Of a stretch of DNA of 64,000 nt, positions 13,590 to 64,000 are shown in pieces (the first letter of the stretch is position 1; the number at the start of each line of letters is the position of its first letter). Both the position numbers and the translations under genes were made by a program. This DNA is from Streptomonospora nanhaiensis. GTDB lineage: Bacteria; Actinomycetota; Actinomycetes; Streptosporangiales; Streptosporangiaceae. The notes under the pieces are model-generated. The model searched no databases. It was not told the origin of the DNA and saw nothing but the letters and a program-made list of their open reading frames with translations. Location: contig NZ_CP113264.1 of assembly GCF_026642255.1 (NCBI RefSeq), positions 4,960,001-5,024,000 on the forward strand, given 5' to 3'.

Positions 13590-14219
13590 TCAGAGCGCGA
13601 GGAGGCCGGTGAGGGGTTCCCCCGCGCGGATGCGGGCCACGAGGCCGGGCTCGTCCCGGTCGGAGCGCAGGGCGCCCTCGACCAGGGACCGGTCGAAGGT
13701 GCGCGGGTCGACCACGAGGAGCCCGTTCTCGTCTCCCAGGACGAGGTCGCCGGTCCGCACGCGCACCCCGCCGACGGTCACGGGGGCGCCCACCGCCCCG
13801 GTGGCGGTGCCCAGGCGCTTGGTGGTGCGGCAGGTGGAGCCCCGCGCGTAGACGGGGAGACCGCTGTCCCTGAGCGCCGCGAGGTCGGTGACGGGGCCGT
13901 CCACGACGATCCCCGCGCCGCCGCGGGCGGCGACCGCGGCGGCGGTGACGGCGCCGATGGGCGCGTGCGCCCCGCCGTCGACCCCGACGACGAGGACGCC
14001 GCCCCGGGGCAGCCGGACGAGGGCGCGGTTGACCGCGAGGGCGTCGGGTTCGGCGAGGTGGACGGTGAGCGCCTCACCGCCCATGCGCGGGGCGCCCGGG
14101 GTGACGGTGCGCACGGCGGGGTCGCAGAACCCCTCCTCCAGGACGTGGCCGAGGGTGGGCAGCTCCACCCCGGCCAGCGCCCGCAGGAGCGCGGCGGTGT
14201 CGGGTCCGGTGTCAGGCAT
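13590..14219 (-). CDS. RraA-like protein with an altered aldolase motif
   Basis: RraA/DlpA-fold protein of 209 residues, related to HMG/CHA aldolase and the RNase E inhibitor RraA. The fold signature is GGVLVVGVDGGAHAPIGAV followed by GIVVDGPVTDLAALRDSGLPVYARG. In active aldolases the second segment carries Arg-Asp; here T111 stands before D112, so the metal- and pyruvate-site Arg is missing and aldolase activity is doubtful. ATG 14219 overlaps the end of the ridA-like gene by 8 bases. Its operon place implies a part in the same catabolic route, perhaps hydrolytic or decarboxylating, but this cannot be settled from sequence. Confidence 0.82.
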   Translation of the reverse strand: MPDTGPDTAALLRALAGVELPTLGHVLEEGFCDPAVRTVTPGAPRMGGEALTVHLAEPDALAVNRALVRLPRGGVLVVGVDGGAHAPIGAVTAAAVAARGGAGIVVDGPVTDLAALRDSGLPVYARGSTCRTTKRLGTATGAVGAPVTVGGVRVRTGDLVLGDENGLLVVDPRTFDRSLVEGALRSDRDEPGLVARIRAGEPLTGLLAL

Positions 14220-60438: not shown

Positions 60439-60690
60439 CTACTCGCCCCCCTCGGCCGGCTCGGGCGCCAGGTAGTTGCCGATGTATCCGAGGACCCCGA
60501 ACACCGCGGCGGCGGTGACCGTCGGCACGAACAGCCACGTGGAGCTGGCGGTGATCCAGTCCGGCCGCTGGGCCACCACCCCGGCCAGCTGGCCGAGGAC
60601 GAGGAGGCTCCCGAGGGCGAAGCAGGCCAGGAGCCCGAGCTTGAAGAGCGCGCGGACGACGGTGAACGCCCGAGACTTGACGGCGGTCAT
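60439..60690 (-). CDS. Small two-helix membrane protein, TRAP partner
   Basis: Protein of 83 residues with two helices: VVRALFKLGLLACFALGSLLVLG and STWLFVPTVTAAAVFGVLGYIGNYL. It begins 2 bases after the stop of the TRAP-type permease, so it is cotranscribed and likely forms a complex with it. A true DctQ subunit is about 160 residues with four helices, so this is either a reduced form or a different small subunit. ATG 60690 is the only reasonable start. Confidence 0.7.
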   Translation of the reverse strand: MTAVKSRAFTVVRALFKLGLLACFALGSLLVLGQLAGVVAQRPDWITASSTWLFVPTVTAAAVFGVLGYIGNYLAPEPAEGGE

Positions 60691-60692
60691 GT

Positions 60693-62039
60693 TCAGCCCC
60701 CCAGGACCGGTAGGAAGCCCCATCCGATGAGGCAGCCGATGAGGAAGATCGGGATCATGTAGTACGCGATCAGCGGCAGGAACGTGCTCTCGGGGCGCGC
60801 CCCGGTCAGGCCCGCCGCCACGAAGATCGACCCGGAGGCCGGCGGGGACGCCCCCTCCGTGGAGGCGAACACGAGGATGGCGACGACCGCGAGGAGCGGG
60901 TCCACCCCCACGCCCACCAGGGCCAGGAAGGAGATCTGGCCCACCGCCGTGAGGGTCGCCGTGGACGAGAGCGGCCCGGCGACCAGTGCCACCACCAGGC
61001 CGACCACGGCGACGAGCAGGAAGCGGTTGACCGGCAGGTCCGCGAGCAGCGCGTTGACGTCCCCGGCGAGCCCCAGCCGGCCGAGGATCTCGCTGGCCGC
61101 GATCGCGAAGAACAGCAGGGCGCCGATGGTGGCGAACTTGGGCATGGCACCGTCGAGCAGCGCCGACCAGCCCCGGATGTTCGTGGGCAGCCGGTCGCGC
61201 CCCGCGACGAGGGAGAACCCGATGATCATGATCGGGATCCAGGTCAGCAGGGAGATCTCGCCCAGCGCGTCGCCGACGGGGGTGGACGTCGAGAGGAAGT
61301 CGGCCACGGGGCCGATCGTGACGACGATGGGGATGAGGGCGCCCAGGAAGATCGACAGCGCGCCCGCGCCCTCCCTGAGCGACGTGCGCAGGGGGACGAG
61401 GTCCTGCCTGTCGGCCTTGGGGATGCCGTCCCTGCGGACGAAGTACATGACCAGGCCGATCCTGAGCAGGATCTGGTAGGCGCCGGCCGCCAGCAGGGCC
61501 AGGTAGACCTGGCCCGTGGTGACCATGCCGCCGGCGAACCCGACCATGATGACCATGGACGCACTGGGCGGCAGTGCGGCGCCCATGCCCCCGTTGCCCG
61601 CGAGGACCGTCGCCGCGCGGGTGGGAGTCCACCCGGTGCGCACCATCCACGGCCCGGTGAAGGAGCCGCTGGAGGCGGTGTTGGCGGAGTTGGACCCCGA
61701 GAGGGAGCCGAAGACCGCCGACCCCGCCGTGTCGATGAACGCGGGGCCGCCGCGGATGCGCCCGAAGACCGAGTTGAGGATGGCCAGGATCTTCTGGATG
61801 AGACCCGTGACGTCGATCAGGTGGGCCATGAACACGAACGCCAGGGCGGCGTAGAGCACGTCGTGGGTGAGGGCGTCGGCGAGCCCGCCCAGCAGGTAGG
61901 CGGGGGCCTGTGCTCCGGCGAAGAGCGCGGTGGTGATCATCCCGAGGAGCATCGCCTCGCCCATGTTCCTCTTGAACACGACGTTCCAGACGATGATCAC
62001 GGCGATGAAGGCCGCGAGGGCTAGGAGTGCGGTGGGCAT
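60693..62039 (-). CDS. dctM: TRAP transporter large permease (DctM-like)
   Basis: Large permease of 448 residues with about 12 helices. DctM-like features are NVVFKRNMGEAMLLGMITTALF, the GRIRGGPAFIDTAGSAVFGSLSGSNSANTASSGS loop (only the parts GSLSGSNSANTASSG are conserved), GMGAALPPSASMVI and the later GPLSSTATLTAVGQISF and SPPASGSIF. TRAP systems carry sugar acids and dicarboxylates with sodium. The binding protein DctP is not adjacent. Upstream lies the 6PGDH/RraA fusion, so the likely cargo is a hydroxy acid. Confidence 0.82.
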   Translation of the reverse strand: MPTALLALAAFIAVIIVWNVVFKRNMGEAMLLGMITTALFAGAQAPAYLLGGLADALTHDVLYAALAFVFMAHLIDVTGLIQKILAILNSVFGRIRGGPAFIDTAGSAVFGSLSGSNSANTASSGSFTGPWMVRTGWTPTRAATVLAGNGGMGAALPPSASMVIMVGFAGGMVTTGQVYLALLAAGAYQILLRIGLVMYFVRRDGIPKADRQDLVPLRTSLREGAGALSIFLGALIPIVVTIGPVADFLSTSTPVGDALGEISLLTWIPIMIIGFSLVAGRDRLPTNIRGWSALLDGAMPKFATIGALLFFAIAASEILGRLGLAGDVNALLADLPVNRFLLVAVVGLVVALVAGPLSSTATLTAVGQISFLALVGVGVDPLLAVVAILVFASTEGASPPASGSIFVAAGLTGARPESTFLPLIAYYMIPIFLIGCLIGWGFLPVLGG

Positions 62040-62274: not shown

Positions 62275-63624
62275 TCATCCGCGTTCACCGCGGATGGCGT
62301 CGCGGCGGCGCGCCTCGTCCTCGACGACGGCCTGTGCGGCGCGGAGGGCCTGCTCGGCCTCCAAGCGCGGGACGACGAACACGCCGTCGCCGTCGGCGAC
62401 GACGATGTCCCCGGTGGCGCAGACGGCGCCGCCCACCGCGATCGGCACGCCGACGTGGCCGGGGCCGTCCTTGTAGGGCCCTGCCGGGGAGACCCCGGCC
62501 GCCCAGACGGGGAAGCCGAGGTCGCGGAGCTCGTCGACGTCGCGGACCGCCCCGTCGACCACCATGCCGCGGATGCCGCGGTTGAGGGCGCGCTCGGCGA
62601 TGAGCTCACCCAGCAGCGCGCGGGAGCGGTCCCCGCCGCCGTTGACCACCAGGACGTCCCCGGGAAGGGCCCGGCCGAGGGCCCGGTGCAGGGCCCGGTT
62701 GTCGCCGGGTCGCGTCAGGACGGTGAGCGCGCGCCCCGCGACACGGGCGCCGGGCCACACCGACCGGATGTGGGGGGAGACGAAGCCGAGGCGGTCGCGG
62801 CCGTCGCCGATGGCGGCGGTGGGGATCCCGGCGAACGCGTCGGCCAGGGCCCGCGTGTCGTCCTGGGCCCGGCGGGCCAGGGCCAGGTGGCGGTCGGCGG
62901 CACCGGCGCTGACCGGGGCGTCGACGCCCAGCCCCGCGAGGAGGTCGATGCTGGCCCGGAGCTCGTTGGACCTGCGCAGGGCGTGCAGGCGGGTCCCCTT
63001 GTTCAGACGGTCCAGGGCGGCCGGGCCCTCGGACAGGGCGTCGGCGATCTGCTCGCGCACCCAGGCCTCCTCGCCCGCGGCGGCGCCGGCGTCCACGGCC
63101 TCGGTGATGAGGGCTCCCAGGCCCTTCATGAAGACGCTGCGCAGCAGTTTGCGGCGCGTGGCGTCGCCGACCTCGCCGCCGATGGGCTCGGTCCCGGCGT
63201 CGACCGCGCCCAGCAGACGCACCGCGTCCCCGGAGGCCGCGCCGGACAGGAGCACCTTGGCCCTGGCCCCGAGCACCAGCACCGATCCGATGATCGCCCC
63301 GTCCACGACCCGCGCGGACGCGCCGAGGGCCTGCGCGACGCGGATCTTGGTCTCCGGCGAGGAGGCGTTGAGGTCCACGTAGACCGCGTCGTCGCGCAGT
63401 ACGGGGCGGGCCGCGTCGGCGGCCGCGACCGCGTGCGCCGCCGTGGTGAGCCCGAGGACCAGGTCGGCTCCCGCGACGGCGTCGGCGGTGGAGTCGGCCC
63501 GCCCCACTCCGGCGGGGGTGGGCGTCTCGCCCGGGTCGTAGCCCGAGACCTCCCAACCCGCGGCCGCGAACGCCGCGGCGTAGGTGGATCCGGCTTCGCC
63601 CAACCCGAGGACGGCGACCTTCAT
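62275..63624 (-). CDS. Fusion of a 6PGDH-like dehydrogenase and an RraA-like aldolase
   Basis: Two enzymes in one chain of 449 residues. Residues 1-255 form a 6-phosphogluconate dehydrogenase-like NAD-binding and DUF1932-type helical unit (VAVLGLGEAGSTYAAAFAAAGWEVSGYD; KLLRSVFMKGLGALITEAVD). Residues about 262-449 form an RraA/HMG-aldolase-like unit (VVNGGGDRSRALLGELIAERALNRGIRGM; VDGAVRD with R361-D362 intact). Dehydrogenase followed by retro-aldol or decarboxylation of the oxidised product is the implied chemistry. ATG 63624 follows AGAAGG. It precedes the TRAP permease genes and faces the IclR gene. I know no characterised protein of this make-up. Confidence 0.85.
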   Translation of the reverse strand: MKVAVLGLGEAGSTYAAAFAAAGWEVSGYDPGETPTPAGVGRADSTADAVAGADLVLGLTTAAHAVAAADAARPVLRDDAVYVDLNASSPETKIRVAQALGASARVVDGAIIGSVLVLGARAKVLLSGAASGDAVRLLGAVDAGTEPIGGEVGDATRRKLLRSVFMKGLGALITEAVDAGAAAGEEAWVREQIADALSEGPAALDRLNKGTRLHALRRSNELRASIDLLAGLGVDAPVSAGAADRHLALARRAQDDTRALADAFAGIPTAAIGDGRDRLGFVSPHIRSVWPGARVAGRALTVLTRPGDNRALHRALGRALPGDVLVVNGGGDRSRALLGELIAERALNRGIRGMVVDGAVRDVDELRDLGFPVWAAGVSPAGPYKDGPGHVGVPIAVGGAVCATGDIVVADGDGVFVVPRLEAEQALRAAQAVVEDEARRRDAIRGERG

Positions 63625-63635
63625 CGTCACACCTT

Positions 63636-63659
63636 CTATCATTCAGTGATAGTTACTAT
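63636..63659. promoter_or_regulatory. Overlapping inverted repeats before the fusion gene and IclR gene
   Basis: CTATCA-TTCAG-TGATAG (63636-63652) and ATAGT-T-ACTAT (63649-63659) are perfect inverted repeats that overlap, in an AT-rich island upstream of the fusion gene. They are the likely operator of the divergent IclR regulator. Confidence 0.65.
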
Positions 63660-63849
63660 TACCAATTGAGAGGAAGTGTGACCTGCGACGCTTCACGCTG
63701 TCAACCCGGTGGAAACCCGTCCGCTACCTTGGGAGCGAGGACCGAGCGGCGGAACCGCCGTGCCCGCCGGGGCCGCGGCCCTCACGAAGGCGTCGGAACG
63801 GCCCCCGGGACAAGCCGGAATCGCAACGGAAGGGCTGGGGACAGCGAGT

Positions 63850-64000
63850 ATGGGAGCCCCGACCGGGACCGGGAACCAGGGACGCACGCTCGACCGGGCC
63901 CTGGACGTCCTGGAGTGCCTGGAGCGTGCGCGCGGGCCGCTCCGGCTCAGCGAGATCGCCAGGGAGAGCGACCTCCACCTGGCCACGACCCAGCGGACCG
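63850..64000 (+). CDS. IclR family regulator, partial at the right edge
   Basis: The frame from ATG 63850 reads GRTLDRALDVLECLERARG and PLRLSEIARESDLHLATTQRT and runs off the window end. This is the winged helix-turn-helix of an IclR regulator; the effector domain is not in the window. It is divergent from the fusion gene and the TRAP genes, so it most likely controls them. The ribosome-binding site is weak. Confidence 0.8.
   Translation, partial: MGAPTGTGNQGRTLDRALDVLECLERARGPLRLSEIARESDLHLATTQRT

Follow-up and report, generated by a model that had tools for sequence, protein, structure and literature searches.

A gene joining a DUF1932-type dehydrogenase to an RraA-like aldolase in Streptomonospora, its locus and its unfused relatives

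Dehydrogenases of the DUF1932 family and RraA-like aldolases are both known protein families, and the two domains are common as a pair of separate genes. To our knowledge, no member of the DUF1932 family (including the solved structures 3qsg, 4ezb and 1i36) has an assigned reaction. On the aldolase side, residues R123, N71, H75 and K147 are important in the HMG/CHA aldolase of P. putida F1, and the phosphate site G144-T145-x-K147 of CHA aldolase has been defined (PMC5065237). The gene described here fuses the two, and thereby ties the DUF1932 family, which is common in catabolic operons including those for protocatechuate-4,5-cleavage, directly to a pyruvate aldolase. In the open-licence literature searched, no paper was found on the DUF1932/RraA pair or on the fusion; as far as the curated models, structures and open-licence papers searched go, the fusion, its predicted regulation from a single site and its permease lacking DctP are undescribed.

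The fusion gene and its distribution

The window, i.e. the whole stretch of 64,000 nucleotides that was analysed, derives from Streptomonospora nanhaiensis, which we take to be a soil actinomycete. The fusion gene (62275..63624, minus strand) is an unbroken open reading frame of 449 aa, with its ATG at 63624 and a stop codon ending at 62275, and has relatives with the same architecture. Profile searches for the domain order detected NAD_binding_2 (aa 2-110, 30.2 bits for a Pfam cut-off of 21), DUF1932 (aa 183-246, 26.2 bits for a cut-off of 25) and then RraA-like PF03737 (aa 269-417, 154.6 bits for a cut-off of 24.5), which bears out the claim of a preceding sequence-only reading that a 6PGDH-like dehydrogenase and an RraA unit are carried on one chain. 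The dehydrogenase domain (aa 1-250; 62875..63624, minus strand) was delimited using Pfam and has 3qsg, 4ezb, 1i36 and HIBADH as its nearest solved structures; the RraA-like class II aldolase domain (aa 255-449; 62278..62862, minus strand) was delimited using PF03737 and superposition on 3noj. In the AlphaFold2 model of the fusion (mean pLDDT 86, pTM 0.52), a helix at 237-250 is followed by a short linker of about 6 residues (aa 251-256; 62857..62874, minus strand) and by a second helix at 257-264. Both domains are well modelled and their mutual placement is unsure; given this low confidence in relative placement, transfer of an intermediate without release, as had been suggested for this protein, has no structural support. 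Neither an NCBIfam model nor a solved chain was found to span the two halves, and the open-licence papers searched include none that covers both.

All relatives of this architecture have an open reading frame across the junction (62820-62880, aa 249-268), which rules out that a stop was missed or the sequence misread there. Of 299 genomes from this order, 14 carry the fusion (63-100% identity); 10 fusion loci come from named genomes (several species of Nocardiopsis, Marinactinospora, Marinitenerispora and two Mycolicibacterium species), and a 48%-identical fusion occurs in a more distant actinobacterium (G512) from another family of the class. All fusions group together in the tree of the dehydrogenase half (support 96/86) and in that of the RraA half (support 81/36, recovered in 82% of bootstrap trees), and are nested among actinobacterial pairs in both, a pattern that suggests a single fusion event. 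Repeated independent fusion is not supported, given this common origin in both trees, support in the RraA tree being weak. The Mycolicibacterium and G512 copies may have been acquired by transfer. The copy of N. eucommiae (L042, L076) contains a frameshift inside its aldolase half in this assembly.

Active-site residues of the two halves

In the dehydrogenase half, the dinucleotide-binding motif GxGxxG is present as GLGEAG (aa 7-12; 63589..63606, minus strand), with G7, G9 and G12 conserved in the alignment, and D30 was found in 35 of 37 sequences, the other two having gaps. An acidic residue at this position, the end of the second strand, is typical of NAD+ enzymes, and NAD+ would thus be the preferred cofactor. 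Residues K159, R162, K167, H214, R217 and R218 show no variation across the 37 sequences, whether fused or split. Lys159 (63148..63150, minus strand) is the putative catalytic lysine: in a MAFFT alignment it falls on the catalytic Lys of HIBADH-like and 6PGDH-like proteins encoded elsewhere in this genome; an hhalign comparison between a HIBADH homolog and the fusion alignment covered only aa 5-145. In the K-x-x-R-S motif of DUF1932, Arg and Ser stand where the HIBADH-like and 6PGDH-like families carry Asn; together with K167 and R217/R218, they suggest a substrate with several carboxylates. Judged by these residues, the active site of the dehydrogenase is intact. This half can be superposed on HIBADH-like enzymes as well as on 3qsg, 1i36 and 4ezb from the DUF1932 family, and scores far below the equivalog cut-offs for HIBADH (TIGR01692, 18.3 vs 291.6 bits), whose membership was rejected on this basis, and for 6-phosphogluconate dehydrogenase (TIGR00872, 11.4 vs 297.2 bits). 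It is encoded by the sole DUF1932 gene of the genome.

The aldolase half superposes on 3noj with a Z score of 29.6 and an rmsd of 1.5 Å over 195 residues. The VRD motif (aa 360-362), already read as intact from the sequence, was aligned with the structure, its catalytic R361-D362 (62539..62544, minus strand) being equivalent to R123-D124 of the P. putida F1 enzyme; E340, which replaces D102, N309, H313 and K385 likewise correspond to D102, N71, H75 and K147. R361 and D362 are conserved in 62 of 62 aldolase sequences, and position 340 is Glu or Asp in nearly all of the same set. With its PF03737 score, its Arg-Asp pair and an acidic residue for metal and pyruvate binding, the domain is classed by sequence as a class II pyruvate aldolase. 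The phosphate site of CHA aldolase is absent, all fusions having G382-P383-Y384-K385 at this place, and the replacement of T145 by Pro383 indicates that the aldolase substrate would differ from CHA. The fusion and its nearest unfused relatives share the motifs SPAGPYK(D/N)GPG and GGGDxSRA, and the LigK-type relatives from ring-cleavage operons have SAQGTVK and TSPSTDG; the domain thus has the catalytic core and fold of a class II pyruvate aldolase and a different substrate pocket. Membership in the LigK/GalC equivalogs was rejected, with scores below both cut-offs (TIGR02798, 145 vs 304.5 bits; PRK09262, 160.2 vs 179 bits). A second RraA-like gene of the window (13590-14219, minus strand, 209 aa) has VTD in place of VRD and lacks the catalytic Arg; it is flanked by genes for thiamine-diphosphate enzyme-like and RidA-like proteins, likely within a catabolic cluster.

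Transport, predicted regulation and unfused gene pairs

The fusion gene is followed in the same operon by a large TRAP-type permease of the DctM family (60693..62039, minus strand; Pfam DctM, 162 bits), which is conserved next to the fusion, and by an 83-aa small membrane protein (60439..60690, minus strand), whose conserved position after DctM is that of DctQ and which has no Pfam or NCBIfam match above cut-off, TRAP families included. DctP is absent from every fusion locus examined, and the only DctP of the genome lies 0.84 Mb away, adjoining its own DctM in another TRAP cluster. The combination of DctM and a small membrane protein without DctP (60439-62039 and homologs) is constant beside fused and split RraA/DUF1932 genes, and is possibly a TRAP-like transporter working without a binding protein. 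An IclR-family regulator (HTH_IclR and IclR_C) is encoded divergently (63850..64000, plus strand) and runs beyond the end of the window (L005:6851-7609). Of the TRAP permease pair and IclR regulator previously proposed at this place, DctM and IclR were thus confirmed, and the small permease matched no TRAP family. The stretch just right of the window (L005:7685-12941) encodes TctA-like and TctB-like proteins, an HMG-CoA reductase of the degradative type (TIGR00532, 395 bits) and a PucR-like regulator, and may be a cluster for mevalonate use adjoining the fusion operon; the TctAB and HMG-CoA reductase genes have no relatives in the other loci compared and were not retained as members of the fusion pathway.

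The palindrome TATCA-N5-TGATA (63637..63651), a putative IclR operator, lies 13 bp ahead of the start codon of the fusion, between this codon and promoter-like elements identified by upstream alignment (63675..63704, minus strand: TTGACA at 63699-63704, an 18-bp spacer and CACACT at 63675-63680), which are conserved in most of 12 aligned loci, with L073 and L074 deviating at -35. It has one exact copy in the 7.27-Mb genome and no copy in 100 shuffles of the window, holds the same position in each fusion locus of the Nocardiopsidaceae, and is absent from all other loci compared. Sites with one mismatch number only two in the genome, fewer than for the reversed control, and a role as a global operator was rejected on these counts. 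As the palindrome is single-copy and fixed in place in the Nocardiopsidaceae fusion loci, the neighbouring IclR protein probably controls only the fusion operon, i.e. has a one-operon regulon with this predicted operator. Since the regulator appears to have only one site in the genome, knowing its inducer should lead directly to the substrate.

Among the matches listed, separate DUF1932 and RraA genes lie no more than about 4 kb apart in more than 20 genomes, and adjoining unfused pairs were found in Thermus, Rhizobium, Pseudomonas, Priestia and Diaphorobacter plasmids. In actinobacterial operons of the order TctB-TctA-TctC-RraA-IclR-dehydrogenase (L062-L064), RraA and the dehydrogenase are the only enzymes. 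Three Nocardiopsis operons (L066, L068, L069) contain a CoA-transferase III, a CitE/RipC-like lyase, DctM, a small protein, RraA, IclR and the dehydrogenase, and an Arthrobacter plasmid and G306 contain IclR, TctBAC, RraA, the dehydrogenase, DctM, a small protein and a cyclase-family hydrolase. In one Nocardiopsis genome (L069:4587-16500), the operon that combines split RraA-IclR-DUF1932 genes with those for CoA-transferase and a CitE-like lyase adjoins the fusion operon itself. With other aldolase subtypes as partner, DUF1932 is also present in the protocatechuate-4,5 operons of Diaphorobacter and Novosphingobium and in operons with oxalomesaconate hydratase (PIG-L) or tautomerase genes in Thermus, Rhizobium and actinomycetes; in protocatechuate-4,5 and gallate-type operons, the pair adjoins a hydratase or tautomerase gene of this kind. 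DUF1932 genes lie within protocatechuate-4,5-cleavage operons of Comamonadaceae and sphingomonads (L091, L110, L111), and in the complete operon L091 every known enzyme of the pathway is present even without counting DUF1932. A cyclase-family (PF04199) gene accompanies the Mycolicibacterium and G512 fusion operons, so that the precursor may be cyclic, for example a lactone. The best evidence for a shared pathway is that the two enzymes are widely encoded by neighbouring genes; combined with the fusion, this makes it highly probable that both activities serve the same route. The proposal that this locus forms a complete uptake-and-use module holds as regards the module, considering the single palindrome and the unfused operons with RraA and the dehydrogenase alone, and fails as regards completeness, DctP being absent and the small subunit unrecognised.

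Proposed reaction and comparison with known systems

The reading that we tentatively prefer, at somewhat less than even probability, is that of a bifunctional catabolic enzyme for a single imported hydroxy-di- or tricarboxylate, which the dehydrogenase would first oxidise and the RraA domain would then cleave by a retro-aldol reaction. This acid would be imported by the DctM-type permease and bound, with NAD+, by the DUF1932 domain, which would act like a 3-hydroxyacid/6-phosphogluconate dehydrogenase with Lys159 as general acid/base and would turn a secondary alcohol into a ketone; the cluster Arg162/Lys167/Arg217/Arg218 would fit a substrate bearing several carboxylates. The RraA domain, like the metal-dependent HMG/CHA aldolase, would then split the C-C bond beta to the new ketone, with pyruvate and another oxo acid as products. 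As an irreversible lyase drain would pull the unfavourable NAD+ oxidation forward, we propose that joining both enzymes is rewarded. Through its single site, the neighbouring IclR protein would switch on the fusion operon only. Weighing against this reading are the complete protocatechuate-4,5 operon L091, whose set of known enzymes is full without DUF1932, the change of T145 to Pro383 in the aldolase half, and the low confidence in how the two domains are placed.

The nature of the second step admits another reading, resembling malic enzyme, in which a 2-hydroxydicarboxylate of malate, tartrate or isocitrate type is oxidised and the RraA domain serves only as an oxaloacetate-type decarboxylase, giving CO2 and a 2-oxo acid. 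Relatives of the domain are annotated as aldolase/oxaloacetate decarboxylase, beta-keto acids are the expected product of beta-hydroxy-acid oxidation by 6PGDH-type enzymes, and C4-C6 di- and tricarboxylates are the cargo of TRAP and TTT transporters. However, 6PGDH-type enzymes often decarboxylate their own product, and true aldol pathways (oxalomesaconate/CHA) are among those that the pair accompanies; we consider decarboxylation in this role rather unlikely. Slightly less likely again is a reversed order, in which a 4-hydroxy-2-oxo acid, once imported, is split by the RraA domain before the dehydrogenase reduces (or oxidises) one of the products, as in aldolase-dehydrogenase partners like DmpFG. 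The order of the domains does not dictate that of the reactions, RraA often lies upstream in unfused operons, and the co-occurring CHA aldolases yield oxaloacetate, which would allow a malate-dehydrogenase-like role; against this, the NAD-type Asp30 points to catabolic oxidation, a dedicated enzyme would be needless for reducing a central metabolite, and the dehydrogenase domain belongs to the 3-hydroxyacid type, not to that of acylating aldehyde dehydrogenases.

Readings that alter the role of one half are far less probable. Imine reductases are among the fold matches of the dehydrogenase domain, which could accordingly be imine reductase-like or opine-type and act on an amino or imino acid, but the catalytic Lys is absent from imine reductases and invariant in the DUF1932 set, and no aminotransferase or amino-acid gene recurs nearby; we regard this as very improbable. 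The least probable reading makes the C-terminal domain a ribonuclease regulator of the RraA type, or a scaffold without catalytic activity, leaving the dehydrogenase alone active. The fold is indeed common to E. coli RraA and Streptomyces RraAS2, but scores for the RNase E regulator equivalogs are far below cut-off (PRK09372, 87 vs 136 bits; TIGR02998, 53 vs 241 bits) and the metal- and pyruvate-binding residues are kept, on which grounds the regulator role was rejected; the same genome also encodes a separate RraA-like protein of 160 aa, and the neighbouring genes are catabolic.

More broadly, DUF1932 dehydrogenases could be a general NAD+-dependent partner of RraA-type aldolases in an undescribed bacterial route from hydroxy-polycarboxylates to pyruvate, of which the fusion, together with its single regulator site and a TRAP-type permease lacking DctP, would be the smallest self-contained form; we hold this broader view a little more tentatively than the reaction proposed for the fusion itself.

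Compared with known systems, the aldolase half matches the P. putida F1 HMG/CHA aldolase (3noj, LigK/GalC type) in fold, in R123-D124, in D102 (here Glu340) and in N71, H75 and K147, whereas that enzyme is a stand-alone trimer-type protein with SAQGTVK instead of SPAGPYKDGPG and T145 instead of Pro383. The other RraA fusions of NCBIfam, hexulose-6-phosphate synthase-RraA (PRK07028) and FAH-RraA (PRK12764), likewise carry the RraA domain C-terminally on a metabolic enzyme, but this N-terminal enzyme is unrelated and the Streptomonospora fusion scores below their equivalog cut-offs. The DUF1932 phosphogluconate dehydrogenase-like proteins 3qsg, 4ezb and 1i36 (MTH1747) share the two-domain fold, GxGxxG and the signature K-[LM]-[LI]-R-[ST]...K-G and, unlike the Streptomonospora protein, are unfused. 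The actinobacterial TctBAC-RraA-IclR-DUF1932 operons (L062-L064) and CoA-transferase/CitE-DctM-RraA-IclR-DUF1932 operons (L066, L068, L069) differ in having two genes with RraA first, in TTT replacing or joining DctM and, for some, in an extra CoA-transferase and lyase, but contain the closest homologs of both halves, together with a regulator of the same family and an adjoining transporter.
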